Virus record (IMG/VR): IMGVR_UViG_3300033146_003853 | Coordinates: 1-28,122 of that record | Strand: one strand, 5' to 3' | From: a virus | Length of the DNA stretch: 28,122 nucleotides | In this document: piece after piece, positions 9 through 27,226 of the stretch | Layout: each line of letters opens with the position of its first letter | Position numbering within the stretch: position 1 is the stretch's first letter | Program-made: the position numbers and the translations under genes | The notes under the pieces: generated by a model | Told to the model about the DNA's origin: nothing | Databases searched by the model: none | What the model saw: only the letters and a program-made list of their open reading frames with translations

Positions 9-18
9 TTATATCGTC
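9..18 (-). promoter_or_regulatory. Putative late promoter motif, copy 1
   Basis: The minus strand reads GACGATATAA immediately after the tape measure stop codon. It is identical over 10 bases to the copies upstream of the portal, major tail and TerS-module genes. The gene it would serve lies beyond the left edge, so the spacing to a start codon cannot be checked. Its role as a promoter is inferred from recurrence. Confidence 0.55.
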
Positions 19-8127: not shown

Positions 8128-8137
8128 TTATATCGAC
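8128..8137 (-). promoter_or_regulatory. Putative late promoter motif, copy 2
   Basis: The minus strand reads GTCGATATAA, 26 bases before the tail chaperone ATG, in a real intergenic gap. It differs from the consensus GACGATATAA at one position. It would drive the chaperone, T-like and tape measure genes. Confidence 0.65.
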
Positions 8138-9262: not shown

Positions 9263-9272
9263 TTATATCGTC
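9263..9272 (-). promoter_or_regulatory. Putative late promoter motif, copy 3
   Basis: The minus strand reads GACGATATAA, an exact consensus match, ending 29 bases before the major tail gene ATG in a 56-base gap. TAAA occurs 12 bases upstream here, but not at a constant distance in other copies. Confidence 0.7.
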
Positions 9273-9289
9273 CAACTTTTTAGCTGTTG

Positions 9290-10760: not shown

Positions 10761-10769
10761 AGATTATCC

Positions 10770-11000: not shown

Positions 11001-11027
11001 GGTTAGCTCCTCTATATTAGTTTAAGT

Positions 11028-11037
11028 ATATATCGGA
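11028..11037 (-). promoter_or_regulatory. Putative late promoter motif, copy 4
   Basis: The minus strand reads TCCGATATAT, sharing the CGATATA core, 27 bases before the ATG at 11000. It is the most divergent copy but sits at the same spacing, right after the capsid gene terminator. Confidence 0.55.
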
Positions 11038-11070
11038 TATTTGTGCGAGATTGGAAAGAATGGGTAGAAA

Positions 11071-11124: not shown

Positions 11125-11152
11125 GTTTGTAGTAGAGAGGTCTCCCTACCTA

Positions 11153-12361: not shown

Positions 12362-12371
12362 TATTTATCCT

Positions 12372-13604: not shown

Positions 13605-13613
13605 TTTTTACTC

Positions 13614-15014: not shown

Positions 15015-15038
15015 AGTCCTTTAAAGTTTTATTAATTC

Positions 15039-15048
15039 TTATATCGTC
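15039..15048 (-). promoter_or_regulatory. Putative late promoter motif, copy 5
   Basis: The minus strand reads GACGATATAA, exact consensus, between terL and the portal gene. It ends 24 bases before the first portal ATG and 27 before the second. It would drive portal, protease and capsid up to the terminator at 11071. Confidence 0.7.
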
Positions 15049-15069
15049 AGTTAAAACGACATTTGGAAG

Positions 15070-16425
15070 TTATACCACAACAACTTCCAGATTTTTCTGC
15101 ATTTCCCACGTGTAAACAGCATAACGGAGAGCGGCCAAGGCTAAATCGTAGTGCCCCAAGGATTGAGTACGCTTGACTGTTTTTGTTTTAGCGTTTTGCC
15201 ATACCATATTTTCAAGCTCATCAATCAGTTGAACACAGTTTTCCGACACAAAAAGCTGCTTATGATGGAACAAGCTATTCACTTTTTGAATACCATCTTC
15301 AATAGTGTTTAAAGCGGGAGCAGTTTCATACCCAAATTGGTACATCAAATCACTCATACTTTGAACAGCGGAAGGGTCAATGAATCTTCTAACATTTTTT
15401 ACAGAATATTTATTTTCTATTTGAACAAAGTTCTCATGGTGCACCGCCAAAGGCATCATATCCAGAGCATATTCATCAATACAGTACAAATTGCCGCTCA
15501 AAGGCTCCACACCGATCAGCAAATAACTGGTGTTATCTGTAAAGCCCATATCTATGCCCACAATATAAAAAGACTCTGAATTGAATTTTTCAAGAATTGT
15601 ATTATGGGGTAAAACATTTTTTTCTCTACTAAAGGCATAGTACACAAGATTGTCAGACATTTCTGACCAGATACCTTCATATTCTCTTTGATAAGTGATG
15701 GGGTCAAGCTCTCTCTTTTTTTGTTCTAAATAAGATTTCGGAATATAAGGATTATCGCTTGTTTTCAAAGTATGATGAATATATCCTTGATATCTTTTAT
15801 CTCTCGCTCTTACCTGTAATTTATACAAATCGTTAGATTTGTCCCGTGCAGTTCCAATAAATACAGCTTTAGCGAAGTTACTCCCTGTCTCTTCATCTAT
15901 ACCAAAGTCTGCCATAGCAGGCTGAAGATAATTTTCAAAAATTCTGATCAATTCCGGTATATCTTGAGACTCATCAAAAATAACAAGAGAGTAACGAAAG
16001 CCAAGAGCATTTTGAATGGACTTTGGAGTTACAACTACAATTTTTGATTCATGTTCAGTTGTAAATGTGAGAGATTTTGAATCTTTTGATTTTATGGGTA
16101 TACCCATCAACAAAATTCTTCTTTCCACCTGCTCAAACATATTTTTTGCAGAGCTGAATGTAGGTGTTACCAATAATACAGCGGAAAAAGGAATCAACAA
16201 TTCTGCAACAGCAATCATAGAAATAATCATAGATTTTCCAAATCGCCTTCCACATACCAAAGTCATAACGTTGAAGCGAGATTGTTGGAAATCCTGCACA
16301 ATTAATAATTGTTTTTTATGCGGCTCAAATCGCACCATATCACAGACTTTTAAATAGTCTATTTTCTTTCTAACTTTCTGAAAAGCTTGTATCTCTTCCG
16401 GTACTACTACTAATTCATTTTCCAT
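15070..16425 (-). CDS. Terminase large subunit
   Basis: A 451-residue DNA-packaging motor. The ATPase has Walker A CGRRFGKS (residues 58-65) and Walker B LVIFDE (147-152). The RNase H-like nuclease has IVGIDMGFTD (Asp292), RRFIDPSAV (Asp350) and HYDLALAALRYA (Asp427). I place the start at ATG 16425 because AAAAGG precedes it. The longer ORF, which opens at 16464, would put 13 more residues inside the 49-bp repeat. It follows terS on the same strand with a 172-base gap made mostly of direct repeats, and has no late motif of its own, so it is probably transcribed from the motif at 17318. Confidence 0.95.
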   Translation of the reverse strand: MENELVVVPEEIQAFQKVRKKIDYLKVCDMVRFEPHKKQLLIVQDFQQSRFNVMTLVCGRRFGKSMIISMIAVAELLIPFSAVLLVTPTFSSAKNMFEQVERRILLMGIPIKSKDSKSLTFTTEHESKIVVVTPKSIQNALGFRYSLVIFDESQDIPELIRIFENYLQPAMADFGIDEETGSNFAKAVFIGTARDKSNDLYKLQVRARDKRYQGYIHHTLKTSDNPYIPKSYLEQKKRELDPITYQREYEGIWSEMSDNLVYYAFSREKNVLPHNTILEKFNSESFYIVGIDMGFTDNTSYLLIGVEPLSGNLYCIDEYALDMMPLAVHHENFVQIENKYSVKNVRRFIDPSAVQSMSDLMYQFGYETAPALNTIEDGIQKVNSLFHHKQLFVSENCVQLIDELENMVWQNAKTKTVKRTQSLGHYDLALAALRYAVYTWEMQKNLEVVVV

Positions 16426-16441
16426 AACAAAGCCTTTTAAA

Positions 16442-16490
16442 AAAGGTGTAACACACTGCCCCACCCCTTAAGTAAAGTATATTCCCTGAA
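16442..16490. repeat. 49-bp direct repeat, copy 1
   Basis: A 49-base segment beginning AAAGGTGTAACACACTGCCC is repeated exactly at 16541-16589, 99 bases further on. It contains the palindromic cores GTGTAACAC and CTTAAG. This copy is in the terL leader, just upstream of its ribosome binding site. Confidence 0.95.
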
Positions 16491-16540
16491 AAAACAGAAA
16501 TATTCTCCATCCTAAATCCTCATTTTTCTTCATAGTTTTT

Positions 16541-16589
16541 AAAGGTGTAACACACTGCCCCACCCCTTAAGTAAAGTATATTCCCTGAA
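16541..16589. repeat. 49-bp direct repeat, copy 2
   Basis: This is an exact second copy of the 49-base segment at 16442-16490, ending eight bases before the end of terS. The 50 bases between the copies are AT-rich and encode nothing I can see. A terminase recognition (cos or pac) site or another protein-binding array is possible; this is inference. Confidence 0.95.
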
Positions 16590-16597
16590 CGAGGGTA

Positions 16598-17026
16598 TCA
16601 ATCTTTTATAATTTGATTCAAAATATTGATATAAGTATTACCCTCAGTTCCAAGTTCTTTCTTCTCTCGTTCTTTCATCATTTGATCGACAATGACAATA
16701 AGATCAACCACATCTTTGGATGTCGCTTTGGAAAGATCGTCTCCATATTTTTCTTCAAGCACTTGTAGTTTATCTTCAATGATTTTGTTGATGATACGAA
16801 GGCGACCTTCTTTTAGTGTAGAGTATTGTTCAGTTATCAACTCCTTAACATACTCTTTAATATGCGGAGTATTTAAAATCTTATTTACTCCAGATTCAGA
16901 AATGCCTAAAGTATTTGAAATATGTTTGATTGACTTACCTTCCGCATACAACTCACAAACTGCTCTCTCGTTGATAGAGAGAGGTTTTATATCTTTTTTC
17001 TGTCCTGAATCAACAATATTTGGCAT
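16598..17026 (-). CDS. Terminase small subunit
   Basis: A 142-residue protein with an N-terminal helix-turn-helix (LSINERAVCELYAEGKSIKH, then ISNTLGISESGVNKILNTPH), followed by a long helical part (YSTLKEGRLRIINKIIEDKL) and a helical C-terminus. This is the layout of phage small terminases that recognise DNA and load the large subunit. I chose ATG 17026 because GGAGGAAA lies upstream; the longer ORF from 17080 lacks a good site. It overlaps the end of the preceding zinc-ribbon gene by 17 bases, and terL follows after the repeat-filled gap. Confidence 0.85.
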   Translation of the reverse strand: MPNIVDSGQKKDIKPLSINERAVCELYAEGKSIKHISNTLGISESGVNKILNTPHIKEYVKELITEQYSTLKEGRLRIINKIIEDKLQVLEEKYGDDLSKATSKDVVDLIVIVDQMMKEREKKELGTEGNTYINILNQIIKD

Positions 17027-17291
17027 CTTGATTTCCTCCAAAAATGTATTGATATAAAGAAGTTTCATAAAGCTCTTCAAACAATTCTTCTGTTTTTTGC
17101 AAATCCCAGTTGTTATTCAGCGAGTTATTCGCTTTAGTACAGTTAGGGCAACGAGAAAGCATAGTAAAGTGCCTTAAAGGTCTCGTTGCAGGAGACCCGC
17201 AAGTACAGGTAAAATAGATAATTCCATTTTTTATTTTATTTACCCGTGGTAAGGGGGAATGGGTTAATTGCTTAATTTTATTGAATTTCAT
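17010..17291 (-). CDS. Small zinc-ribbon protein upstream of terS
   Basis: A 93-residue protein with a probable metal site: CTCG at about residues 29-32 and CPNC at about 48-51, separated by a basic segment. It resembles a short zinc ribbon. The C-terminal half is an acidic helix. The start at 17291 has AAAGGG upstream, and an exact late motif ends 26 bases before the ATG, so it is the first gene of the leftward late block. It overlaps terS. I do not recognise a family; packaging or DNA-binding help is only suggested by position. Confidence 0.75.
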   Translation of the reverse strand: MKFNKIKQLTHSPLPRVNKIKNGIIYFTCTCGSPATRPLRHFTMLSRCPNCTKANNSLNNNWDLQKTEELFEELYETSLYQYIFGGNQDAKYC

Positions 17292-17317
17292 AAATACCCT
17301 TTATATTTACTTCTCAA

Positions 17318-17327
17318 TTATATCGTC
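17318..17327 (-). promoter_or_regulatory. Putative late promoter motif, copy 6
   Basis: The minus strand reads GACGATATAA followed by TT, exact consensus, ending 26 bases before the ATG at 17291. It would drive the zinc-ribbon, terS and terL genes. It stands back to back with the rightward sigma70 promoter 25 bases away. Confidence 0.72.
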
Positions 17328-17351
17328 TTTAAGGTTAGATTAAGAATAAAC

Positions 17352-17380
17352 TTGACATATTTCATCTTTGTTGTTATAAT
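17352..17380 (+). promoter_or_regulatory. Strong rightward sigma70 promoter
   Basis: TTGACA (17352-17357), a 17-base spacer and TATAAT (17375-17380) form a perfect consensus housekeeping promoter, with a TG three bases before the -10. The first start codon is at 17411 after AAGGACGGAAGG. This host-recognised promoter probably makes the rightward genes, including the autotransporter-like protein, early or constitutively expressed. Confidence 0.88.
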
Positions 17381-17410
17381 TTCGCACACCAACTCAAAGG
17401 ACGGAAGGCA

Positions 17411-17902
17411 ATGTCAATACAGCAGCTTGTGGAAACTAACCTAAACAACCTCACAACTCCCGCAAAATTTTTACAAGCTCAAAAACTGGAATCCCTTCCA
17501 ACTCCTAAACAACTATTGCTAACGCCGATTGTATACTCTTCACAAGACTTCGAGTACCTCCGAAAAGTGTACAGAAATTCCGTCCAGAGAGTTGGGTTTT
17601 TCTATACTCCTCCCGCTTTTAGATACTCATTTGCAGGAAAGGTAAAAAGTTACGCTTTCTTTGTAGTGAGTGCATATCACCTGAAGGAGTGGGGAGACAT
17701 GCTGTTCGCAAATCATCAAATAAAACTTGATTACAGCATGATCTCTCCGCATCCAAAACTTTACGAGTTCGCTGACAAAAGCATTAAATTTTTTAAAAAG
17801 CCTATTGATAAAGGTTGCTTTGAGTTAGTGAAAGTAAGAGTAGGTGATTATCTGTACGGGTGGAGTATTGAAGAACCTTTCTATTCCCGTGAACCAAAAT
17901 AA
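17411..17902 (+). CDS. Hypothetical protein, first gene of rightward operon
   Basis: A 163-residue protein I do not recognise. It has a polar, helical N-terminus (SIQQLVETNLNNLTTPAKFL), a central aromatic stretch (VGFFYTPPAFRYSFAGKVKS) and a predicted mixed alpha/beta C-terminal half, with no membrane segment or catalytic motif. AAGGACGGAAGG precedes the ATG, and the strong sigma70 promoter ends 30 bases upstream. Its stop is 11 bases before the next gene, so the two are probably co-transcribed. Its position directly behind a host-type promoter suggests early expression or expression from a prophage. Confidence 0.82.
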   Translation: MSIQQLVETNLNNLTTPAKFLQAQKLESLPTPKQLLLTPIVYSSQDFEYLRKVYRNSVQRVGFFYTPPAFRYSFAGKVKSYAFFVVSAYHLKEWGDMLFANHQIKLDYSMISPHPKLYEFADKSIKFFKKPIDKGCFELVKVRVGDYLYGWSIEEPFYSREPK

Positions 17903-17913
17903 GGAGTATTATA

Positions 17914-18741
17914 ATGAGAAGAATATTGGTGGCCCTACTCATGCTTGCCTCTATTGGCTTTAGTTGTGATCTGGAAAAGTGGCAAACGTGTATGATCAAC
18001 CAGCATACAAAAGTGTTGAAAAAAGTTGGAGATCACTTTGTTATTGTGGATGAAACCCTTGCAACCCATGAAAAACAGATTAACCACAACCATGAAGAAA
18101 TTCACAATAACGAGAAAACCATTTTCCAAAATAAACAAGATATTTTTGAGACAAAAAATAAAGTACGCATCAATTCTACTCAAATCGAGCAGAATGTAGA
18201 AAAATTGCAAAACCACGAAAAAGAGATTGCAAATACGAACAAATCTCTTCGTTATACTCAAAAAACAGTGTTGAAAAATTCTCAAAAAATTGAACATAAC
18301 CATAAAGAGATACACGCTAATGGGGCAAAAATCGAAGAGACCACAGAACTTGTTAATAAAAATACACAAGTGAATACAGAGCAACAAAAAGCAATCAGTA
18401 AAAATACGAAAAAAGTTAATTCCATTGAAAACAAGATGACAGCTTATAGTGATGAAGTTGCTTATGTCAAAAATCAAGTAGATGAAAACAAAGAAAATCT
18501 AAAGGACTTGGAATCTGCCATGTTAGCTCTGAGTGCAGTTGATTTTAACCCTGATCATGAAGGCCTATCTTTAGGTTTCGGGTTTAGTTCAACAGGCAGT
18601 GATTCCGTGGCCGGAGCTATAGGAGTACAGTATGGTATGGGGTATGTAGATGGTGTATCTGTTGCAGTTAATGCAAAAGGATATGTAGGGGAAGGTTTAC
18701 ACCATAAAGGTGTCGGCGTAGGCATGACTTTAGGATTTTAA
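17914..18741 (+). CDS. Miniature trimeric autotransporter (YadA-like)
   Basis: A 275-residue secreted protein. Residues 1 to about 17 are a signal peptide (RRILVALLMLASIGFS), then Cys18 and Cys26. Residues about 50-195 are a regular coiled coil of IxxNxxx heptads, for example QKIEHNHKEIHANGAKIEET, with hydrophobic a and asparagine d positions as in the N@d stalks of trimeric autotransporters. Residues about 200-275 fit a YadA-like anchor: a linking helix, Gly-rich amphipathic strands (GLSLGFGFSSTG, VAGAIGVQYGMG) and a terminal Phe. No passenger head is present, so it is stalk plus anchor. It would form a trimer in the host outer membrane. Related surface proteins are known on prophages (Eib proteins). 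Binding, lysogenic conversion or blocking of other phages are possible; none is shown. Confidence 0.82.
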   Translation: MRRILVALLMLASIGFSCDLEKWQTCMINQHTKVLKKVGDHFVIVDETLATHEKQINHNHEEIHNNEKTIFQNKQDIFETKNKVRINSTQIEQNVEKLQNHEKEIANTNKSLRYTQKTVLKNSQKIEHNHKEIHANGAKIEETTELVNKNTQVNTEQQKAISKNTKKVNSIENKMTAYSDEVAYVKNQVDENKENLKDLESAMLALSAVDFNPDHEGLSLGFGFSSTGSDSVAGAIGVQYGMGYVDGVSVAVNAKGYVGEGLHHKGVGVGMTLGF

Positions 18742-18752
18742 AAGGAGCTTTA

Positions 18753-19307
18753 ATGGAATTTGTAAAAAATATTATTGAAATTGGTGCGATTTCTCGTGTA
18801 ATCGATTGGAACAAAAAAAGAAACAATCTGGAATTGTCAGTGTCTTTGGAAAAAGATATGCTTACAGAAGAGCTGAAAGAATACTTCGCTGCTGAGGACA
18901 TTATCGATAAGACTGATGCCGTCTGTGATACTCTGTTCGTTGCCGTAGGTACTGAAGCTAAAGTAGCGAACAATCCTTTTGATAAAGAAGGAAACATTGT
19001 TCGTTTAGCGGATATCCTGCCTATCGAGGCGATTGATGTTATGTTCACGGATTTTTACGGCTGTCTACAGAAAGAGGGCATCTCACAGAATCTTATCCTC
19101 CAATTCGTGAATGAGGCTTTTAACATTGTTATTGAGGCGAATGAGCAAAAGACCGCACAAAAAAACAAACAAGGTAAAGTCGAGAAGCCTAAAGACTTTG
19201 TAAAACCGGAAAAGAAAATCAAAAAACTGTTTGATTATTACCTTGAGCTTTCAGAGCAGGAACGTAGAAAAGCGAAAGAGCAGTTGGAAAAAGGAGTTAT
19301 GGGATGA
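18753..19307 (+). CDS. MazG/HisE-like nucleotide pyrophosphohydrolase-like protein
   Basis: A 184-residue protein. The N-terminal 75 residues resemble the all-alpha NTP pyrophosphohydrolase family: an arginine/lysine helix, then a metal-binding pattern in MLTEELKEYFAAED followed by IIDKTDAVCDTLFVAVG, corresponding to ExxE...DxxD. Family members hydrolyse (d)NTPs to monophosphates, and phage copies are common. The C-terminal third is very lysine-rich and probably flexible, ending in a charged helix. AAAGGAG precedes the start 11 bases after the autotransporter stop, and the end overlaps the next gene by four bases. The spacing of acidic residues is not perfectly canonical, so activity is uncertain. 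Confidence 0.65.
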   Translation: MEFVKNIIEIGAISRVIDWNKKRNNLELSVSLEKDMLTEELKEYFAAEDIIDKTDAVCDTLFVAVGTEAKVANNPFDKEGNIVRLADILPIEAIDVMFTDFYGCLQKEGISQNLILQFVNEAFNIVIEANEQKTAQKNKQGKVEKPKDFVKPEKKIKKLFDYYLELSEQERRKAKEQLEKGVMG

Positions 19308-19576
19308 TGCCAAGAAAATTGACTTGTAAAGAAGTCAAAAAAATCGTTCAAAACTTTTTTGATGGGAGGACTCTGTTGGCCCTTGGGCAGGAGTTTAATG
19401 TATCCCGACAAACAGTTAGAAATATTTTGACGAGAATAATCTATAAAGACTGCTTTGAAATAAAAGAATTTGGGTACTTTTCAATACCTGAATGGGAAGA
19501 GGCAGTCCGAAAACGCCTAACGCAAAATCAACGCCTCTCCAAAGGTCGAGGTGTACGAGGACGCAGAGGGCCATAA
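19304..19576 (+). CDS. Small helix-turn-helix protein
   Basis: A 90-residue basic protein. Residues about 22-47 (GRTLLALGQEFNVSRQTVRN) read as a homeodomain/resolvase-like helix-turn-helix. The C-terminus is an Arg/Gly-rich tail (KGRGVRGRRGP). It could bind DNA as a regulator of this region. The start overlaps the previous gene (ATGA), with AAAAAGGAG about ten bases upstream. A second ATG follows at 19307. Confidence 0.7.
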   Translation: MMPRKLTCKEVKKIVQNFFDGRTLLALGQEFNVSRQTVRNILTRIIYKDCFEIKEFGYFSIPEWEEAVRKRLTQNQRLSKGRGVRGRRGP

Positions 19577-19587
19577 AAGGATTATTC

Positions 19588-19809
19588 ATGGCTTATAAAT
19601 ATCAGGCAAGAGATTTCAAAAAATCTCTTGTTTTTATCAACGGAACTCCCTACAGAGCGGAGTCTATCTACAGTGTTTCTCCCGTTGTCTTTGATGGAAA
19701 AGACTACACTTTTGAAGTTCATTTTTTAAACGGTTCCATCAAGCATTTGTTTTTCCCCAGTAAAGAAGCTGCATTACAGACTCACGAAAAATTAGAAAGG
19801 TTACTATAA
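19588..19809 (+). CDS. Hypothetical protein
   Basis: A 73-residue protein I do not recognise, predicted mostly beta (FKKSLVFINGTPYRAESIYS, YTFEVHFLNGSIKHLFFPSK) with a closing helix. I start it at ATG 19588, which has AAAAGGA upstream; the longer reading frame from 19492 overlaps the previous gene by 85 bases and lacks a ribosome binding site. Its stop shares TAATG with the next gene. Confidence 0.72.
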   Translation: MAYKYQARDFKKSLVFINGTPYRAESIYSVSPVVFDGKDYTFEVHFLNGSIKHLFFPSKEAALQTHEKLERLL

Positions 19810-20117
19810 TGATTGATGATATCTTAGTTTTAATTGGTTATGGTTATGCTTTAAATATTTTATTTTTTCTTGCCCTCCTCTTTTTAGGAGTTTACGAAAA
19901 CATTAGATATCCGCATATAGGACTTTTGTTAGACCTCCAAAGAGAAAAAATAAAGAAATGCAAATACTCTAAAATTCCGAGTATGCTTTTACCCTATCTC
20001 TATGCCTACAATGTTTGGAGAATTTTCTGGAAAAGCCGTAGTAAGCCCAGAAATTCGATACTCCTCGCTATGGTGGATGTCGCTCTTGAAGAAGAGTGTA
20101 AGGAACAGTTAAGCTAA
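19809..20117 (+). CDS. Small membrane protein, one N-terminal TM segment
   Basis: A 102-residue protein with a clear hydrophobic segment at about residues 5-28 (VLIGYGYALNILFFLALLFL) followed by a basic cytoplasmic-type tail (REKIKKCKYSK) and a C-terminal helix rich in Glu. By the positive-inside rule the tail should be cytoplasmic. The start overlaps the preceding stop (TAATG), which implies coupling. Function unknown; a role in altering the host envelope is conceivable. Confidence 0.72.
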   Translation: MIDDILVLIGYGYALNILFFLALLFLGVYENIRYPHIGLLLDLQREKIKKCKYSKIPSMLLPYLYAYNVWRIFWKSRSKPRNSILLAMVDVALEEECKEQLS

Positions 20118-20124
20118 CATGCTA

Positions 20125-20141
20125 TATAATGCTGTTATATA
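20125..20141 (+). promoter_or_regulatory. Possible promoter with tandem TATA elements
   Basis: TATAATGCTGTTATATA lies in the 40-base gap before the gene at 20158. The same arrangement (TATAATACTGTTATATA) recurs at 24615, also in a gap before a start codon. Both contain sigma70 -10 hexamers; no clear -35 is seen. Confidence 0.45.
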
Positions 20142-20157
20142 AAACAAAGGAGTAGAA

Positions 20158-20454
20158 ATGGTTGATTTTGTAGGTATCTCAATTGATGAGGACAAGGTTC
20201 TTGAAATTTCAGACCCAAAAGCTATGTATCAAAGGTGGAGAATTTCAATTCTATTGAATGATGGTTCTACACTTGTTTTTTACAATAATGACAAAAAATA
20301 TCTGGAAGATGTAAAGAAATATATCCTCGATAAAAAAGAGGAGAGTAAAAAGAAAAGCAGAAAAAAGAAAAAATCTGAAGATGTTACTTTTGAAAAAGAG
20401 CACAAAGGCGAGTGGGTAGATCAAGCTGATTCAGAGCCAACAAATGAAAAGTAA
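20158..20454 (+). CDS. Hypothetical protein with lysine-rich linker
   Basis: A 98-residue protein I do not recognise. The first 60 residues look like a small beta-rich domain (VDFVGISIDEDKVLEISDPK, RWRISILLNDGSTLVFYNND) resembling short PH-like or Sm-like folds, ending in a helix. Residues about 60-75 are almost all Lys, Glu and Ser, and the tail is acidic. AAAGGAG precedes the ATG, after a possible promoter. Confidence 0.7.
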   Translation: MVDFVGISIDEDKVLEISDPKAMYQRWRISILLNDGSTLVFYNNDKKYLEDVKKYILDKKEESKKKSRKKKKSEDVTFEKEHKGEWVDQADSEPTNEK

Positions 20455-20776
20455 AACTTTACGGGTCGTTAATTGCAACGACCCTATAACTTACTTTTCC
20501 GTTCGATATTATCAGGCTCGCAGAAATTCAGAAGTATTTGTGTGGGTTCATATAAATTTACCTGTTTATAGAAAGTTAATAGAGGACAAAGAAAAAGCTA
20601 CACAAATTATATCTTTATTTGAAATGATAAACAATATTTCAACATTTATTTCAAAACAAAATTATAAGTATTCTTTTGTTGATGTTTCTGAAAATCTTAA
20701 AAAGCACTTGTTAATTTTTTCTCAGTCTCTTAAAGTTGTATTAAATACCTCTATTTGTGTAGAGGAAGAAAATTAA
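20444..20776 (+). CDS. Hypothetical protein
   Basis: A 110-residue protein of unknown family, mixed strand then helix (NSEVFVWVHINLPVYRKLIE, ISLFEMINNISTFISKQNYK). The start is uncertain: ATG 20444 overlaps the previous gene by 11 bases and has no good ribosome binding site, and an 8-bp inverted repeat occupies codons 7-14. It may be translated by coupling. Strongly AT-rich. Confidence 0.6.
   Translation: MKSKTLRVVNCNDPITYFSVRYYQARRNSEVFVWVHINLPVYRKLIEDKEKATQIISLFEMINNISTFISKQNYKYSFVDVSENLKKHLLIFSQSLKVVLNTSICVEEEN
20463..20484 (+). other. Perfect 8-bp hairpin at the start of a coding region
   Basis: GGGTCGTT and AACGACCC flank a six-base loop, eight bases after the previous stop codon. It resembles an intrinsic terminator stem, but a proper U-tract does not follow (TATAACTTACTTTT). 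It may attenuate transcription or shape translation of the gene at 20444. Confidence 0.55.
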
Positions 20777-20786
20777 AGGATAAACC

Positions 20787-20975
20787 ATGACAAATGTATA
20801 TTATTGCTATATTCAATTTAGAAGTGGAGAGAGCACAAAATACACAAACATAACAGAATACTCTGTTATCAATAACATTCTAACTTTGAAATTTTTCAAT
20901 ATGGATACTATGTTGGTAAATTTTGATGAGATTTTCAAAGTTCGTTTTATGATTCAAGGACAAAAAGATGACTGA
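20787..20975 (+). CDS. Small hypothetical protein
   Basis: A 62-residue protein, predicted all beta (NVYYCYIQFRSGESTKYTNI, ILTLKFFNMDTMLVNFDEIF), unknown family. AAAGGA precedes the ATG by about seven bases. The fold pattern is similar in outline to the beta-rich N-terminus of the protein at 20158, so both may be small Sm/PH-like domains; this is weak. Confidence 0.68.
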   Translation: MTNVYYCYIQFRSGESTKYTNITEYSVINNILTLKFFNMDTMLVNFDEIFKVRFMIQGQKDD

Positions 20976-21375
20976 ATATTCTGTAACTGAAGATATTCCC
21001 TTTGAAATTAAAAGACAGGTAATTTCTGTACTTGAAGCAAAAGCTGAAGTTTCATATGATAAAGTAGCGATTGAACAGGGTTATACAACTTTGGAAGAGC
21101 TATCTAAAAAAGCAAAAGAATATTTATGTAAACGCATAGAGGGCACAATAAAAGTTATTGACAAAGAGGATGTATATTCGCCTTATAAACGGGTTTTATT
21201 GGCAAAATTTTATTTGCCTTATGTCGAAAGTGAAAAAATAAAGGCTATTCAAAAAGAAAAAGAAGTAGTTCAACAATATGCTGATTATGTTGAACAAAAA
21301 CTCAGAGTTTATGAAAAGGCCTCTCTTTTGACACTTTTAAAACTGTGGTGGGAAAGGAGAAAAAAGCGTGGATAA
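20968..21375 (+). CDS. Hypothetical helical protein
   Basis: A 135-residue, mainly helical, charged protein of unknown family (FEIKRQVISVLEAKAEVSYD, KIKAIQKEKEVVQQYADYVE). The C-terminus ends with LLTLLKLWWERRKKRG, an amphipathic Trp-containing basic segment that could touch membrane or nucleic acid. It overlaps both neighbours by eight bases. Confidence 0.7.
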   Translation: MTEYSVTEDIPFEIKRQVISVLEAKAEVSYDKVAIEQGYTTLEELSKKAKEYLCKRIEGTIKVIDKEDVYSPYKRVLLAKFYLPYVESEKIKAIQKEKEVVQQYADYVEQKLRVYEKASLLTLLKLWWERRKKRG

Positions 21376-21745
21376 AAAAGAAGTTTATACGGTTGTGGCT
21401 TACAGATTCGGTGACAAAGAGAGGCACTCATATATCGTCGGAATTTTTTCAAATGCAGACGACGCTTTGCAAGAGGCTTTGAAAGAAGAAGAATTTCGTG
21501 GGGGAAAATACGAGTGTGAAATTTATAAAATTCCTTTAAATACTCCTATGAAAATGAAAGGTTGGGAAACTATCAAAGATGTACCGCCAACTCCCCATGA
21601 AGAGCATCTTAAAAGGTTCGCTTTAACAAAAGAGCTTACCAGAATGAAAATGCTTTCTCAGGGCTTTTCAGAATATCCAACCCTTCAAAAAACTATCCAA
21701 GCCTTCATCGAAGAATTGCAAAATACCTTAGATAACTTAAAGTAA
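21368..21745 (+). CDS. Hypothetical protein, GTG start
   Basis: A 125-residue protein. The first 60 residues (YTVVAYRFGDKERHSYIVGI and EEEFRGGKYECEIYKIPLN) look like a compact alpha/beta domain that I recall from short unnamed phage and bacterial proteins; I cannot give a function. The second half is helical. I accept the GTG start at 21368 because GGAAAGGAG precedes it. It is the last gene before the holin control hairpin, and no terminator separates them. Confidence 0.7.
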   Translation: MDKKEVYTVVAYRFGDKERHSYIVGIFSNADDALQEALKEEEFRGGKYECEIYKIPLNTPMKMKGWETIKDVPPTPHEEHLKRFALTKELTRMKMLSQGFSEYPTLQKTIQAFIEELQNTLDNLK

Positions 21746-21750
21746 TCTTA

Positions 21751-21815
21751 AAGACCAACTTCCAAAATAAAAACGATATATGTAGTAAATATATCTATTT
21801 TTGGGAGATGGTCTT
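21751..21815 (+). promoter_or_regulatory. Hairpin hiding the holin start site
   Basis: AAGACCA (21751-21757) pairs with TGGTCTT (21809-21815) and, after one A-A mismatch, CTTCCAAAA (21759-21767) pairs with TTTTGGGAG (21799-21807), including one G-U. The right arm contains the holin GGGAG site and ATG (21808). The 31-base loop contains the late motif. Read-through RNA should fold and block translation; RNA started in the loop cannot. The same logic is known for T4 gene e. Confidence 0.78.
21772..21781 (+). promoter_or_regulatory. Putative late promoter motif, copy 7 (plus strand)
   Basis: AACGATATAT on the plus strand ends 26 bases before the holin ATG, the same spacing as in the leftward copies. 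It is in the loop of the holin hairpin, so a start about 6-8 bases downstream would give RNA without the left arm. Confidence 0.65.
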
Positions 21816-22242
21816 GAAGTGGCTTACAGACATCATTTCCGGCAGCGTCGATAAAGTTATTGATTCTGTAGGAAATGCTTTAGACAAATTATTTACCTCA
21901 GATGAAGAGCGAATGAAGGCTCAGGTTCTGCTGGACAAAGTTTCCAATGAATTGAAATTGGAATTAGGTAGGCAGAGCCTTGAGTACGATAAAGAAATTA
22001 CAAAACGGTGGCAAAGCGATAATGAACATTTTGTTACTCGTTTAGTTCGCCCCTCTGTCGTTATCTGGGTCTATACTCTTTTTACCGTAGTCATGCTTGC
22101 TGACGGAAATCTCGGAAATTTTAAAATCAATACCGCTTATATTCCTCTCCTTGAGACCGTTTTGGTTACAGTGACTGTAGCTTACTTTGGTAGTAGAGGC
22201 ATTGAAAAAACTTCAAAATTTTTTAGTAGGGGCAAAGAATGA
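21808..22242 (+). CDS. Holin, 3-TM family
   Basis: A 144-residue membrane protein matching the 3TM holin family seen in phages and gene transfer agents. It has an amphipathic N-terminus (LKWLTDIISGSVDKVIDSVG), a conserved charged middle (TSDEERMKAQVLLDKVSNEL, YDKEITKRWQSDNEH), then TRLVRPSVVIWVYTLFTVVM and a second hydrophobic segment (LLETVLVTVTVAYFGSRGIE). Holins permeabilise the inner membrane at a set time to release endolysin. The start codon and GGGAG site are inside the inverted repeat described here. It overlaps the next gene by four bases and begins a holin, XhlA-like, lysozyme cassette. Confidence 0.88.
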   Translation: MVLKWLTDIISGSVDKVIDSVGNALDKLFTSDEERMKAQVLLDKVSNELKLELGRQSLEYDKEITKRWQSDNEHFVTRLVRPSVVIWVYTLFTVVMLADGNLGNFKINTAYIPLLETVLVTVTVAYFGSRGIEKTSKFFSRGKE

Positions 22243-22568
22243 CTCATGAACAATATGAACAAATTTTTACCAATCATATAAACCGACTGGAAAAAGATTT
22301 GTCCATTCTACAACAAAATCAAGAGCACATCAATCATACTCTTGAAAAGTTGGATGGAAACATTACACGGTTGCTTCAAATTCAAACCTCCATCCAATTA
22401 CACTCACAAAGGATGGATTTGATGGATAAAGAATTAACACAAAGTTTTAAACGAGTACACAACCGTCTTGATATTCTCGAAGGTAATGTTCGCTGGGTGG
22501 TAAGAAGCATCATAGGTACTTTTATAGCAGGTGGAGTAAGTCTTTTGTTTTATCTGGTAAGGACATGA
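22239..22568 (+). CDS. XhlA-like membrane protein of the lysis cassette
   Basis: A 109-residue protein: a coiled coil over residues about 10-80 (QNQEHINHTLEKLDGNITRL, RVHNRLDILEGNVRWVVRSI) and one C-terminal transmembrane helix (IIGTFIAGGVSLLFYLV). This is the shape of haemolysin XhlA-type proteins, which help holins and endolysins in other phages. Its ATGA overlap with the holin and its stop one base before the lysozyme gene show tight coupling. It is not a typical inner-membrane spanin, which would carry its TM helix at the N-terminus. Confidence 0.75.
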   Translation: MTHEQYEQIFTNHINRLEKDLSILQQNQEHINHTLEKLDGNITRLLQIQTSIQLHSQRMDLMDKELTQSFKRVHNRLDILEGNVRWVVRSIIGTFIAGGVSLLFYLVRT

Positions 22569-22569
22569 T

Positions 22570-22980
22570 ATGGAAAAATTGATAGAACAAATCAAAAAAG
22601 CTGAGGGGTTCAGTGGGATGCCTTACGAAGATACATTGGGAATCCCTACAATTGGTTATGGTACTAAATTACCAATTGATGAAGAAGAAGCGGAACTTTT
22701 GCTTAAAAAAAGATTAAATGATACAATCAAAGACTTGAAACGGGCCTACCCTAAATTTGAAGAGTTGCCCCCAACGATTCAAGAGGTTCTTTTGGATATG
22801 GGATACAATATGGGTATTCCCAGACTGATGAAATTTAAAAAAATGTGGAAAGCTATTGACAAAGGTGATTGGAATAAAATGGCCGATGAGATGGTAGACA
22901 GCCGATGGTATCGTCAAGTTGGAAACAGAGCTAAAAATCTTGTCCAAGTGGTAAGAGACTATGCGGAATGGGTTTTGTGA
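22570..22980 (+). CDS. Endolysin, T4-type lysozyme (GH24)
   Basis: A 136-residue muramidase that cleaves the peptidoglycan glycan chain. The catalytic triad of T4 lysozyme is present: Glu12 in KKAEGFSG, Asp21 in YEDTLGIPTIGYGT and Thr27. The C-terminal part has the conserved VLLDMGYNMG, MADEMVDSRWYRQVGNRA and a final Trp. No signal peptide is visible, so it should rely on the holin. It has no ribosome binding site far from the upstream stop (GTAAGGACATGAT leader). A terminator follows. Confidence 0.94.
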   Translation: MEKLIEQIKKAEGFSGMPYEDTLGIPTIGYGTKLPIDEEEAELLLKKRLNDTIKDLKRAYPKFEELPPTIQEVLLDMGYNMGIPRLMKFKKMWKAIDKGDWNKMADEMVDSRWYRQVGNRAKNLVQVVRDYAEWVL

Positions 22981-22992
22981 AAATAAAGATTT

Positions 22993-23031
22993 ATGCCTAT
23001 TAATTATGAATTTAATAGGTATAAGTTTTTT
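22993..23031 (+). terminator. Terminator after the lysis cassette
   Basis: ATGCCTATTAA (22993-23003) pairs with TTAATAGGTAT (23012-23022) with one G-U and an 8-base loop. TTTTTT follows at 23026-23031. The stem is AT-rich but complete, and it lies 13 bases after the lysozyme stop. Confidence 0.75.
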
Positions 23032-23059
23032 AATCTATTTAATTATAAAAGGAGAATGA

Positions 23060-23482
23060 ATGGCAACGCAAATTGTAAGAGATAAAAGCCCAATGGCCAT
23101 AGCAAAAAGAAAAGCAGTAGATGTAATGGCTAAAACTGCGGCTATCAACATTACAACAGATGAAGGAGCTGTAGAAATTGGTATTGATGGAAATATTGAT
23201 TCCGATTTTATGATTGAAGTTAATTATAGTGGAAACGACACATTTTCTTTTCGTGTTAATGAAACAAACAACTTTAAAAAAGGGCAGCGTGGTTTTATTA
23301 CGATCTGGAATAAGTCTGACAACAATATGGATATTGAATTAAGACAGTTTAGCCACGAAGGTATTCCTGCTTATTATGCTTTGAATGGTTATGCTCTTGT
23401 TATTGCTGAATATTTTGCAATTGAGGATAACGAATTACTGTATTCCGTATTTGGAAGTTGGGAATTTACTGGAGAGGGGTAA
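23060..23482 (+). CDS. Hypothetical beta-rich protein
   Basis: A 140-residue protein I do not recognise. After a basic helix (SPMAIAKRKAVDVMAKTAAI) it is mostly alternating strands (GAVEIGIDGNIDSDFMIEVN, FKKGQRGFITIWNKSDNNMD) ending with LYSVFGSWEFTGEG. The pattern resembles small phage virion or fibre-associated beta domains, but no motif decides this. AAAAGGAGAATGA precedes the ATG. It lies after the lysis terminator, so a separate promoter is expected; I see only AT-rich sequence. Confidence 0.75.
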   Translation: MATQIVRDKSPMAIAKRKAVDVMAKTAAINITTDEGAVEIGIDGNIDSDFMIEVNYSGNDTFSFRVNETNNFKKGQRGFITIWNKSDNNMDIELRQFSHEGIPAYYALNGYALVIAEYFAIEDNELLYSVFGSWEFTGEG

Positions 23483-23530
23483 TAAAATATGAAAACGGTA
23501 AATAAATATGGTGTCGGAGGGGTGTGAATA

Positions 23531-24028
23531 ATGAAAAAGATTTTGATGATTATATTTGCAATGATTTTTTTCTCTGGATGTACAACGGATGATGTAATCG
23601 ATTTGTCTTTCTTTAAAAAAGATGGAAAAGAGAAAAAACAAGAATGTCCTGTATGTCAAGATCAAAATTTGACTTACATCAAACAGGTCTGCGAGGCAGA
23701 AAAATTGCTGCCTTGCCCAGAGTGCCCAGAATGTAACACAACAAAAGATTGTCCTGTTGTAGAGCCTTGTCCTGAGCCGGAACCTTGTCCTGTCTGCCCG
23801 ACTTATGGGGATTATCAAGGGATTATGCAGGATATTCTTGAGGATATAGATACCCAGAACATTAAAATGAATCATTATGTCGATGGGGAGTTGATTGATA
23901 CCAACTATGCAGAGCTTTTGTATGATATCCATAATAAGCCCTACACAAAAAACAATATTATTATGCCTCCTTACAAAGGAGAGCCTATGAAGCACGTGCT
24001 CGTTATCGAGTTTACCCAAATCCGTTAA
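23531..24028 (+). CDS. Cys/Pro-rich lipoprotein
   Basis: A 165-residue lipoprotein. The N-terminus KKILMIIFAMIFFSGC is a signal peptide with lipobox FFSGC, so Cys17 should be lipidated. Residues about 38-92 are crowded with CPxC-type motifs (ECPVCQ, PCPECPECN, CPVVEPCPEPEPCPVC). The C-terminal 70 residues are an unrelated mixed domain ending in VIEFTQIR. Its place shortly after the lysis genes, Pro-richness and lipidation recall outer-membrane spanin subunits (Rz1-like), but it is longer, and no Rz-like partner is seen. The Cys motifs could bind metal or form disulphides in the periplasm. GGAGGGGTG precedes the start. Confidence 0.8.
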   Translation: MKKILMIIFAMIFFSGCTTDDVIDLSFFKKDGKEKKQECPVCQDQNLTYIKQVCEAEKLLPCPECPECNTTKDCPVVEPCPEPEPCPVCPTYGDYQGIMQDILEDIDTQNIKMNHYVDGELIDTNYAELLYDIHNKPYTKNNIIMPPYKGEPMKHVLVIEFTQIR

Positions 24029-24047
24029 GGAACTTCAAAGCTACTTT

Positions 24048-24088
24048 CAGCTATCCTTTCATATAGCATGAAAAAGGAAGGATAGCTG
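24048..24088 (+). promoter_or_regulatory. Hairpin hiding an RBS and GTG start
   Basis: CAGCTATCCTT (24048-24058) pairs perfectly with AAGGATAGCTG (24078-24088), extendable by T-G and C-G. The right arm contains the GGAAGG site and the first base of the GTG start (24088). No U-tract follows, so this looks like a translational control hairpin and not a terminator. Confidence 0.6.
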
Positions 24089-24393
24089 TGTCTGATGATG
24101 CAAAAGAAAAAATGAAGCAATTGTTGGAAGAGGCAATTGCAGGAAAAGAACTTTCTTCATCTTCTCCAATTTCTATACTATCCATGAAAGATTTGATAAA
24201 CATTGCCAGAGCTGAAGGCCTTTTACGAGGTTTGTTGATGTCCCTGCGGCATTTGCTGCACGCTGTGTCCAACGGGGAGGTGTCAGCAGACGAAGCCTAC
24301 AAGAAAATTTTAAAGGTTTTGAACGAATCTGTGGATTTGCTTCACGATGTTAATAAAAAATCCCGACAGGAGAAAACACATGGTAAAATTTGA
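24088..24393 (+). CDS. Hypothetical helical protein, GTG start
   Basis: A 101-residue protein, predicted all helical (DAKEKMKQLLEEAIAGKELS, ARAEGLLRGLLMSLRHLLHA, SADEAYKKILKVLNESVDLL), unknown family. The GTG at 24088 is chosen because AAGGAAGG lies six bases upstream. Both are buried in an inverted repeat. The end overlaps the next gene by 14 bases. Confidence 0.68.
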   Translation: MSDDAKEKMKQLLEEAIAGKELSSSSPISILSMKDLINIARAEGLLRGLLMSLRHLLHAVSNGEVSADEAYKKILKVLNESVDLLHDVNKKSRQEKTHGKI

Positions 24394-24601
24394 TTGGAAA
24401 AGGCTATTTCTGGCATTTCTTGTTTTACAGGTTTTGATGTGGGGTTCCTACCTTGTTTATGATATCACTGGAAAATCTTTTGTTTGTGTAGCACAAAATT
24501 GTGAAAGAGCAGATTGGGGATTGGCTTTTTTGTTTGGGGTACAAGCTCCTTTGCTTGTTTTGTTTATGATTTTGACTATAACTGCAATTAAGATTGATTA
24601 A
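24380..24601 (+). CDS. Small membrane protein, two TM segments
   Basis: A 73-residue protein with two hydrophobic segments (LFLAFLVLQVLMWGSYLVYD and FLFGVQAPLLVLFMILTITA) around a short loop carrying two Cys (FVCVAQNCERADW), perhaps a periplasmic disulphide. I chose ATG 24380 with CAGGAG upstream. Unknown function; an envelope-modifying phage protein is possible. Confidence 0.72.
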   Translation: MVKFDWKRLFLAFLVLQVLMWGSYLVYDITGKSFVCVAQNCERADWGLAFLFGVQAPLLVLFMILTITAIKID

Positions 24602-24614
24602 AGTTTGCACCTGT

Positions 24615-24631
24615 TATAATACTGTTATATA
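24615..24631 (+). promoter_or_regulatory. Possible promoter with tandem TATA elements
   Basis: TATAATACTGTTATATA, nearly identical to the element at 20125, in the 48-base gap before the ATG at 24650. CTGTTATAAT precedes CTGTTATATA as an imperfect tandem. TTGATT lies 15 bases upstream of the first TATAAT, a weak -35. Confidence 0.5.
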
Positions 24632-24649
24632 TCATCTTAAGGAACACTC

Positions 24650-24847
24650 ATGACCAAATATTCAATCAAGATTATGGAAGTCCATCTTCTCAAAGACGGA
24701 GAAGATATCGCTGTAATGTATCGAGAAGATACGACACAAGATATGGTTGTCTCTACCGAATCTTCTTTGGATAAAGTGGATTTAAAAATGCTGGACTACA
24801 TCATGTCTGTCGTTGACAAGACTGAAAAAGAGGTGGAAGATTTATGA
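24650..24847 (+). CDS. Small hypothetical protein
   Basis: A 65-residue acidic protein, strands then helix (YSIKIMEVHLLKDGEDIAVM, LKMLDYIMSVVDKTEKEVED), unknown family. It follows a possible promoter and TTAAGGA. It overlaps the next gene by four bases (ATGA). Confidence 0.65.
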   Translation: MTKYSIKIMEVHLLKDGEDIAVMYREDTTQDMVVSTESSLDKVDLKMLDYIMSVVDKTEKEVEDL

Positions 24848-25155
24848 AATTCACAGAGGAACAAAGAAAGATGTATAAAGAAATTGGCGAGTATTTAGAA
24901 AGTCAGGAATTTTATAAAAACCGAATCAAAATGTGCAAAGAATATCTGGAAGGTAATGGGGATATGAGGACAAAAATCATTTTCACGAACCCAAAAGATA
25001 TGACCAGAGATAGACACTTGAATCTGGATAGAGATGTTGGGGAACTTGTGTTTAAAACACTGCTGAAAAGATACGAGGAAGATTTGGAATTCATCCAAAG
25101 TTGCCTTGACGATTACCATATTTATAAATTTGAAGATGTTATGGAGAACACATGA
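24844..25155 (+). CDS. Hypothetical helical protein
   Basis: A 103-residue charged helical protein (QRKMYKEIGEYLESQEFYKN, ELVFKTLLKRYEEDLEFIQS), probably coiled coil, unknown family. It overlaps both neighbours by four bases and so is part of a coupled string. Confidence 0.68.
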   Translation: MKFTEEQRKMYKEIGEYLESQEFYKNRIKMCKEYLEGNGDMRTKIIFTNPKDMTRDRHLNLDRDVGELVFKTLLKRYEEDLEFIQSCLDDYHIYKFEDVMENT

Positions 25156-25292
25156 ATCAGGTTATCTGGGATATGACGATTGTGTATGCTCTGTTGGTTA
25201 TAGGAGCATTGGCGAGTTTGTTCAACGCTGTATTACAGTATAAGTGGTATAGAAAAACTCATGGAATGACAGATAAAGAAGAAAAGGAATAA
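25152..25292 (+). CDS. 46-residue single-pass membrane protein
   Basis: A short ORF starting in the ATGA overlap with the previous gene. Residues about 5-29 form one transmembrane helix (WDMTIVYALLVIGALASLFN) followed by a basic then acidic tail (YKWYRKTHGMTDKEEKE). Overlap coupling and the clean TM pattern support it as real. Function unknown. Confidence 0.65.
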   Translation: MNQVIWDMTIVYALLVIGALASLFNAVLQYKWYRKTHGMTDKEEKE

Positions 25293-25294
25293 CA

Positions 25295-25555
25295 ATGGCA
25301 TTGAATGATATAGAAAAAGCGGTCTTTTTTGATAAGCTTAAAAAGGTTCCTCTGCATTTTGAGGAGTATTACAAACACAAGTTTTTGTATAAAACCATCC
25401 TTATGAGTGGTGATATCGTAAAAGTGGTTTTCACGGTGGAAGATTGTTACCGAGAACATTTTGCCAGAGTGGAAAATTTTTCTTCTATTGCCAATGAAGA
25501 GGATGCAGTTGTTACCTATCAATCAGGGGAGTTCATCGTGGAGGTGACGGTATGA
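25295..25555 (+). CDS. Hypothetical protein
   Basis: An 86-residue protein of unknown family, helix then strands (DIEKAVFFDKLKKVPLHFEE, GDIVKVVFTVEDCYREHFAR, YQSGEFIVEVTV). AAAAGGA precedes the ATG two bases after the previous stop. It overlaps the next gene by four bases. Confidence 0.68.
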   Translation: MALNDIEKAVFFDKLKKVPLHFEEYYKHKFLYKTILMSGDIVKVVFTVEDCYREHFARVENFSSIANEEDAVVTYQSGEFIVEVTV

Positions 25556-25833
25556 GCCAGATTTCCATGACCTTGAATGAATATGTTGAAGATGCTTTGT
25601 ACAAAGCGGTGGAAAAGTATGTGCGGGAAGTTATGAACGAAGAGTTCAAAGAGGTTGTCAGAAAAGAAATCGAAAAACACCTTGATGATATCCTCAAAAA
25701 TTACTTTGAAGAATTTTTGAAATACGGAGATGAAATTGTTTACGAAAACTTTTCCGAAATGTTGGTCGAAATGTTGAGAGAACGATTAAAGAACCTGAAA
25801 TTGGTTGATAAAGGGAGTGAAGATGCAGTATGA
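25552..25833 (+). CDS. Hypothetical acidic helical protein
   Basis: A 93-residue protein, almost fully helical and Glu/Lys-rich (NEYVEDALYKAVEKYVREVM, FKEVVRKEIEKHLDDILKNY), probably an elongated coiled coil. Unknown family. It is coupled to the previous gene through ATGA and overlaps the next by 11 bases. Confidence 0.68.
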   Translation: MSQISMTLNEYVEDALYKAVEKYVREVMNEEFKEVVRKEIEKHLDDILKNYFEEFLKYGDEIVYENFSEMLVEMLRERLKNLKLVDKGSEDAV

Positions 25834-26011
25834 ATCTTTGAGCAACCCAAAACAAGCCAAAGTTATGAGCGTTGTCATTGGAGTCAAAAGTTATTCCGAT
25901 TTTCAGAAAATGCTAAATCAATGGAAAACTGTCAAGGTGGAGTATAAACTCCTGAAAGTTGAGTTTGACAGGGAGAACCGGCAGGTTCACTACATGCTTG
26001 AAAAAGGTTAA
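25823..26011 (+). CDS. Small hypothetical protein
   Basis: A 62-residue basic protein (VVIGVKSYSDFQKMLNQWKT, VKVEYKLLKVEFDRENRQVH), alpha/beta. I start it at ATG 25823 with AAGGGAG upstream; an upstream TTG at 25805 is less likely. Unknown family. Confidence 0.62.
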   Translation: MQYESLSNPKQAKVMSVVIGVKSYSDFQKMLNQWKTVKVEYKLLKVEFDRENRQVHYMLEKG

Positions 26012-26027
26012 TCCAAAAGGAGCACCG

Positions 26028-26309
26028 ATGAATCTTGAGGGCTTTGAAGAAAGCTTTGAAAAACTGTTTGACGTTGTGTTGAAAGAGGATTGGAAAGAAA
26101 TCTACAACACCGTCACCGCCGAACGTCTTGTTTCTGGGCGAAACACTGTGATGTTGCATGAGGAATTGGCTAAAGAGCAAGGCCTTTTGCACGTGTGGGA
26201 TGTTGACCCTGATGGTGATTATTTAGTCACCATGCAGTCTGATCGTAACCTTACACCTTATTATGTGTACCCTGAAATGGTTGAAAAAGTCAAGGAGACA
26301 GTGAAATGA
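26028..26309 (+). CDS. Hypothetical protein
   Basis: A 93-residue acidic protein of unknown family (LEGFEESFEKLFDVVLKEDW, LHVWDVDPDGDYLVTMQSDR). I chose ATG 26028 with AAAAGGAG upstream; the longer frame from 25959 overlaps the previous gene. It overlaps the next gene by four bases. Confidence 0.68.
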   Translation: MNLEGFEESFEKLFDVVLKEDWKEIYNTVTAERLVSGRNTVMLHEELAKEQGLLHVWDVDPDGDYLVTMQSDRNLTPYYVYPEMVEKVKETVK

Positions 26310-26626
26310 ACAACAAATGCAAAAAACGCTGGAAAAAAGCGAAAAAATTTATCAAGAAAATCAACAAACTCATCGATCAGGGTTATCTGATTTTTGATGA
26401 CTACGGAGAAAAAATCGACAGAAGATTCATCATCACAAAAAACCAAATTTCTCTGAAAACCCATGAATGGGTGGAAGAAGTGTTTTTTGTGTATAACACT
26501 GAACTCGACAATGGTTGCCACGAATCACACAAAGAATGGACACAACGTTTCATGGAATGGAGAGTCGTGAGACCGGAGTGCTACAAAACATTGGAAGAAA
26601 GGATAGAAGATGGCGATTTCCTGTAA
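26306..26626 (+). CDS. Hypothetical protein with basic N-terminus
   Basis: A 106-residue protein with a very basic first helix (CKKRWKKAKKFIKKINKLID) and a mixed, Trp-rich remainder (THEWVEEVFFVYNTEL, WTQRFMEWRVVRPEC). Unknown family; nucleic acid contact is possible. It overlaps the next gene by 17 bases. Confidence 0.66.
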   Translation: MNNKCKKRWKKAKKFIKKINKLIDQGYLIFDDYGEKIDRRFIITKNQISLKTHEWVEEVFFVYNTELDNGCHESHKEWTQRFMEWRVVRPECYKTLEERIEDGDFL

Positions 26627-26975
26627 AAAATGTGGGTCAATGGCGATCAACCCGCATCTGCATGGCAGAGACCCAGAGGTTGACACCGATCTGTGCGATG
26701 TGTGCTATTGGAGAAAACGAGCGGATTTGCCGAAATTGAAAGTGCCCCTGCGGGTCTCGATTGAAGTGGCAGATCAGATGCCGGATTTGGAAGAGTTTTT
26801 GAAAAATGAAGGAGAAAGAGTCTTGTGTGCCGACATGCGGCCTTTCATGTCTCTGTATCAGAACGGTTCCACTTTTGGCACGATTCAGTATGTGTTCTCC
26901 TTCGATTTGGAAGCTTTTTTGGCACATATGAAAGAACTCACAGAACAGGAGATGGAAAAATGGCAGTCGTTATGA
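26610..26975 (+). CDS. Zinc-ribbon hypothetical protein
   Basis: A 121-residue protein. Cys5 and Cys8 (CKKC) with Cys29 and Cys32 (CDVC) form a likely four-Cys zinc ribbon in the first 35 residues. The rest is alpha/beta (VPLRVSIEVADQMPDLEEFL, TIQYVFSFDLEAFLAHMKEL). GGAAGAAAGGATAG precedes the ATG. Function unknown. It overlaps both neighbours. Confidence 0.7.
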   Translation: MAISCKKCGSMAINPHLHGRDPEVDTDLCDVCYWRKRADLPKLKVPLRVSIEVADQMPDLEEFLKNEGERVLCADMRPFMSLYQNGSTFGTIQYVFSFDLEAFLAHMKELTEQEMEKWQSL

Positions 26976-27226
26976 AATTCAACACTGAACAACTGGCTGA
27001 GTTGCTCCATTCTCAACTGTCTCACAAAGAGGTGGTGGAACTTATCCATATGATCGAAGAGCTTGATGGCAGTTTCGCTCTGTCTGCAAAGATCATCCAA
27101 TCAGTGTTGTCGAATTTCACAACGGACTTGGAAATCGGGGAAGTGGTGAAGTTTTCAGAGTTCCCTGAAGTGTATGAAGTTGCAAAGCACTTTGTGAAAA
27201 AATACGAATGTGAGCAAGAGCAATGA
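26960..27226 (+). CDS. Hypothetical helical protein
   Basis: An 88-residue protein of unknown family (TEQLAELLHSQLSHKEVVEL, ALSAKIIQSVLSNFTTDLEI). I start it at ATG 26960 with CAGGAG upstream; the longer frame from 26825 overlaps the zinc-ribbon gene heavily. It overlaps the next gene by four bases. Confidence 0.64.
   Translation: MAVVMKFNTEQLAELLHSQLSHKEVVELIHMIEELDGSFALSAKIIQSVLSNFTTDLEIGEVVKFSEFPEVYEVAKHFVKKYECEQEQ

Follow-up and report, generated by a model that had tools for sequence, protein, structure and literature searches.

A probable lysis-timing switch, comparable to that of T4 gene e, over the holin gene of an uncultivated phage

From this analysis we consider it likely, though well short of certain, that the lysis operon of an uncultivated phage carries a timing switch that works like the one of T4 gene e and that arose independently of it. 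The window, meaning the whole stretch of DNA analysed, is the 28,122-base IMG/VR virus record IMGVR_UViG_3300033146_003853 (positions 1 to 28,122). A switch of the T4 e type had been proposed for this region in a sequence-only reading, and the late promoter element, the operon on the opposite strand and the hiding of the start by the left arm of a hairpin were all borne out, whereas the layout, the start codon and the degree of opening had to be revised. The coordinates are collected in Table 1.

Table 1. Positions of the hairpin, promoter elements, lysis genes and gene blocks in the window
Feature	Position	Strand	Basis
Leftward structural (late) block	19-17291	-	gene layout
Rightward block	17411-27938	+	gene layout
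Early promoter of rightward operon, TTGACA-17-TATAAT	17352..17380	+	12/12 sigma-70 consensus, TG before -10
Late promoter element just beyond the stop codon of gene 19-6993, pointing outward over the left end of the contig	10..17	-	motif search
Late promoter element before gene 7676-8101	8129..8136	-	motif search and extended model
Late promoter element before tail gene 8196-9233	9264..9271	-	motif search and extended model
Late promoter element before gene 10770-11000	11029..11036	-	motif search and extended model
Late promoter element before portal gene	15040..15047	-	motif search and extended model
Late promoter element before small-terminase operon	17318..17326	-	motif search and extended model
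Hairpin left arm	21751..21767	+	16/17 bases paired; MFE and partition function
C at -19 of holin site, second conserved base of element	21755	+	inside hairpin left arm
Holin late promoter core ACGATATA in loop	21773..21780	+	sole plus-strand CGATATA
Inner 7-bp stem GATATAT/ATATATC in loop	21775..21795	+	MFE structure
Expected late transcription start	21786..21790	+	inferred: 6-8 nt past element, by analogy with phiEco32
Hairpin right arm	21799..21815	+	holds SD GGGAG 21803-21807, AUG 21808 and first two bases of UUG 21814
Holin gene, 3TM holin type	21814..22242	+	phrog_3427 E=1.1e-16; ORF also open from ATG 21808
XhlA-like lysis protein	22239..22568	+	PF10779 E=1.4e-8; ATGA overlap with holin stop
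Endolysin, phage lysozyme family	22570..22980	+	PF00959 E=1.8e-13
Intrinsic-terminator-like hairpin closing lysis operon	22985..23030	+	-19.2 kcal/mol, z=-5.6, A+T-rich, U-rich 3' arm

The holin gene does lie, as had been claimed, in a rightward operon opposite to the late block, and this operon is headed by a perfect sigma-70 promoter, the sole such site in 17250-28122. The further claim that no terminator precedes the holin also held: a scan of the plus strand from 19031 to 24439, which requires three G-C pairs, gave no terminator-like site. With the promoter upstream and the plus strand free of terminators in that GC-requiring scan, early read-through into the holin gene is predicted. The holin scored 18.1 bits against Pfam GTA_holin_3TM (PF11351), under the cut-off of 24.8. 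A candidate promoter and a terminator flank the lysis genes, which therefore form a unit of their own inside the early operon. The same operon contains a gene at 17914-18741 with a signal-peptide-like start, coiled-coil repeats and a GMTLGF C-terminus, the predicted product of which resembles a trimeric autotransporter-like surface protein.

The hairpin was found where it had been placed, with 17 nt on either side forming 16 pairs around one A·A mismatch (A21758/A21808). Bases 21751-21757 pair with 21809-21815 and bases 21759-21767 with 21799-21807, in 15 Watson-Crick pairs and one U-G (21761-21805); the U-G pair and the mismatch caused a repeat finder to overlook the stem. The loop measures 31 nt (21768-21798) and contains an inner stem that was not in the earlier reading (21775-21781 with 21789-21795); the promoter core makes up one of its arms. 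The opening energy of the holin start, about 20.7-20.8 kcal/mol, is the highest of the 43 gene starts in the window, and the partition function gave the holin SD an unpaired probability of 0.00 on the read-through RNA, which is the sequestration expected of a T4 e-type hairpin. Rfam gave no match at gathering score anywhere in the window and sub-threshold hairpin-like matches only in 21600-22000, so an Rfam element was set aside as the identity of the hairpin. The second highest opening energy (14.2 kcal/mol) belongs to another occluded start, GTG 24088, whose ribosome site falls within a 10-bp hairpin (AGCTATCCTT...AAGGATAGCT, within 24045-24090) that has no CGATATA in its loop.

The ribosome site GGGAG and the ATG were both said to lie inside the right arm, and they do; the ATG is probably not the true start. 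GGGAG directly adjoins AUG 21808 with zero spacing, UUG 21814 is 6 nt downstream of GGGAG, and two homologues from Vibrio phages have their annotated start at the equivalent of holin residue 3. Because the spacing from GGGAG to AUG is unworkable and two homologues begin at the equivalent residue, we take UUG 21814 as the probable start. Both candidates are in the right arm.

The late motif itself proved to be genuine. Exact copies of CGATATA number eight on the minus strand and one on the plus strand of the window, against 0.6-0.7 per strand expected from shuffles, and five of the minus-strand copies, standing ahead of late operons, end 25-30 nt before the gene starts 17291, 15014, 11000, 9233 and 8101. 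We assembled a family of about 20 IMG/VR records through terminase, tail and capsid alignments; IMG/VR searches with single holin or portal proteins gave no confirmed relatives. Homologous structural genes in these relatives are preceded by CGATATA or, in one subgroup, by CGATNATA. A C at -19 from the core was present in 30 of the relatives' 52 sites compared with a background of 16% (a nominal p of 9e-12 that is indicative only, the sites not being independent), and also in four of the five late sites in the window. Going by these sequence comparisons, the late promoter of the family is C-N18-CGATATA or CGATNATA. An extended promoter model, built from the relatives alone and spanning -25 to +17, ranked the five intergenic late sites of the window first to fifth; the sixth (10-17) is too close to the contig end to be scored by it. 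In the subgroup comprising L003, L005, L006 and L007-L011, the element before the same genes exceeds CGATATA by one base (CGATAATA/CGATTATTA), which, to judge from the sequences, is a traceable promoter shift inside one family. A candidate late transcription factor for CGATATA is the 90-aa protein encoded at 19304-19576, which has a sigma-70 region 4-like HTH (PF04545, above cut-off) and is kept just after a MazG-like gene in most relatives.

At the holin, AACGATATAT occurs once, at 21772-21781 in the hairpin loop. The placing of the late motif in the loop thus stands for its core, while the second conserved base sits in the left arm. The extended model gave this site a score of 12.2, seventh overall and near the 5th percentile of the relatives' sites (11.5), whereas a core-only model gave it 6.6, a rank of about 20th, and the late sites 10.8-17.0; several non-promoter sites outscored it in the core-only weight matrix. 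These results suggest that the holin site is probably a genuine promoter, weaker than the true late sites.

We infer the transcripts, their timing, the translational block and the coupling of the lysis genes as follows. Early, polymerase with the host primary sigma would start at 17352-17380 and read through the holin gene, and the RNA, having both arms, would fold and bury the holin start. The XhlA and lysozyme starts would also be poorly used on this early RNA, owing to a dependence on holin translation through overlap or adjacency. Late, a form of polymerase that reads C-N18-CGATATA, and that would also be used for the structural genes of the opposite strand, would start at about 21786-21790. 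The resulting RNA would begin past the left arm, the long stem would be impossible, holin, XhlA and lysozyme would be made, and the transcript would end at the 22985-23030 terminator.

Folding in silico is in keeping with such a mechanism, up to a point. Removal of the left arm lowered the opening energy from 20.7 to 10.1 kcal/mol, and by the same method the start of T4 gene e went from 16.5 to 4-6 kcal/mol without its left arm. The predicted late start would lie past the arm end at 21767 and give an RNA without the 5' arm. In the late holin RNA the SD is still paired with the coding sequence, and at about 10 kcal/mol this RNA remains above most genes of the window. Perhaps this residual fold lowers the holin yield, or the switch may be less clean than that of T4.

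Persistent folding of the late RNA would also suit another explanation, that the hairpin blocks the holin on any transcript and keeps its level low at all times, that CGATATA is there by chance, and that lysis is timed by slow, leaky translation or by upstream ribosomes opening the stem. The low core-only score points the same way, as does the stop of the upstream gene at 21745, just 5 nt from the left arm, where a stopping ribosome might open the lowest pairs of the stem; an RNA begun at 21758 had an opening energy of 12.2 kcal/mol. However, this is the only CGATATA on the plus strand, and it stands 27 nt from the AUG or 33 nt from the UUG, compared with 25-30 nt at the late sites. It also has the C at -19, and under the extended model it scores highest on the plus strand. 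We therefore regard a chance occurrence as unlikely, while granting it more room than any of the explanations that follow.

Given that the promoter evidence stands alone, and that the inner palindrome and the promoter core share bases, the late promoter could be real and drive the lysis operon while the inverted repeat is irrelevant to translation, being a chance structure or a site for a protein at the DNA level. The fold statistics make this improbable. The stem suits RNA pairing, with its one U-G, and covers the SD and start exactly. Its MFE is -27.9 kcal/mol (z = -5.5), none of 5000 full dinucleotide shuffles folded as well, and a chance fold was set aside on this ground; when the 22-nt left-arm region was shuffled alone, the observed blocking was reached in 4 of 3000 cases. 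The hairpin is not the most stable among 70-nt windows across the whole contig. Among the 76 motif-bearing starts in the family, the holin alone is strongly occluded (20.7-22.9 kcal/mol), the next being at 12.1 kcal/mol. An intrinsic terminator or attenuator parting the early genes from the lysis genes, as the position of the repeat directly after the stop at 21745 might suggest, is very improbable, since the plus strand has no U tract after the stem and the terminator scan found nothing there.

The placement of the lysis genes in relatives bears on why such a switch would be needed. None of the family records checked had a holin in the early operon or the arrangement of the window. In the relatives with a recognisable lysis cassette (L106, L108 and L109) it belongs to the late block, with the capsid gene on one side and the homologue of the gene at 10770 on the other, and it differs in composition, with a spanin-like pair and XhlA-like, holin-like and amidase genes. 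Such late-block cassettes would need no early silencing, and the contrast with the early-strand cassette of the window explains the need for a switch here. One further locus, with a lysozyme match of 64%, was rejected as not comparable, its cassette lying beside tail genes in another order.

In another relative, L107, CGATATA also precedes an early-strand gene (4166), and therefore the element may not be strictly late. This might be taken to mean that early silencing is unneeded, the rightward operon being of middle or late class, but we find that hardly credible for an operon headed by a 12/12 sigma-70 promoter and lacking CGATATA at its start, when TTGACx/TATAAT-like sequences are found ahead of early genes in several relatives.

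Some further observations concern the record and its relatives. Tail-protein comparison showed the late block to be 99% identical to a contig of a Desulfobacterales MAG and 72% identical to one of a Saprospiraceae MAG; these host labels disagree, so neither is taken as naming the phage host. The former contig spans late genes only, and the holin region was sought elsewhere in its MAG and was absent. Around the point where the large terminase gene begins there is a perfect 49-nt direct repeat (16442-16490 and 16541-16589, 99 nt apart), which is possibly a packaging or terminase-binding site. Next to the portal and small-terminase genes of L003, at about 9080-9190, is a similar pair of about 45-nt repeats, unrelated in sequence. 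On the minus strand of L107, about 450 nt of non-coding sequence (about 690-200) lie downstream of two tandem CGATATA (649 and 683); this stretch matched nothing in Rfam, lacked homologues in the other loci, and is a candidate phage non-coding RNA.

Returning to the switch, we give about an even chance to the fuller proposition that a family unrelated to T4 evolved an e-type switch independently, with the lysis cassette in the early operon and its own bipartite promoter superimposed on the hairpin. As part of that same evenly balanced claim, the left arm would hold the conserved base, the loop the core and the right arm the ribosome site, and a single set of bases would act both as a promoter in DNA and as a repressor in RNA. 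If the switch is real, an RNA hairpin over the ribosome site of a lysis gene, bypassed late, would be a recurring solution and no peculiarity of T4, and such hairpins would be worth seeking wherever lysis genes sit on the early strand. The analysis also provides an uncultivated phage family with a late promoter and a candidate partner for it, the conserved small sigma region 4-like protein. Our full-text literature search, with incomplete journal coverage, found no description of a holin governed in this way outside T4-like phages, a silence that is a weak sign of novelty.

Related arrangements have been described in several phages. In T4, genes e, soc, 49 and I-TevI have their starts hidden in a helix on early RNA (PMC3014915), and the same hairpin arrangement is found at T4 segB and Aeh1 mobE (PMC2988022). 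As is proposed for our phage, soc, 49, I-TevI, segB and mobE are late genes present on early or middle RNA, whose SD becomes accessible only when the RNA is begun at the late promoter; unlike the holin, they are not lysis genes, and they are confined to T4-like phages with T4-type late promoters. For SPP1, the passages at hand describe lysis genes in an early transcription unit, with the endolysin and one holin made early and lysis awaiting a second, late-made holin component (PMC6316719). A separate device times lysis there, as is proposed here, but it is that late component, and those passages describe no hairpin switch. The gp36 late promoters of phiEco32, which serve middle and late genes, consist of a short single AT-rich element (tAATGTAtA) with the start 6-8 nt downstream (PMC8948821). 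The holin core is likewise short, single and AT-rich; its sequence is different, and a full phage sigma is known for phiEco32, as against only the 90-aa protein here.

The closest comparison is with T4 gene e itself, where the hairpin cuts synthesis about 100-fold and late promoters directly precede the ribosome site (PMC3014915, citing McPheeters et al. 1986). In T4, and by prediction in our phage, a long early RNA hides the SD and start of a lysis gene in a stem; in both, the late promoter is located where the 5' strand of that stem is encoded, and folding in silico is similarly lost without the left arm. It had been claimed that the holin follows exactly this plan, and that goes too far, given the bipartite element reaching into the left arm, the probable UUG start and a late RNA at about 10 rather than 4-6 kcal/mol. 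T4 has two copies of TATAAATA, whereas there is a single promoter core here and no T4-type TATAAATA late promoter in the loop, the family using its own element instead. The target in T4 is the lysozyme; here it is the holin, with the lysozyme downstream, and the late RNA is more folded. Because the late promoter differs and the phage families are unrelated, the switch is a functional parallel of T4 gene e and not a homologue of it.
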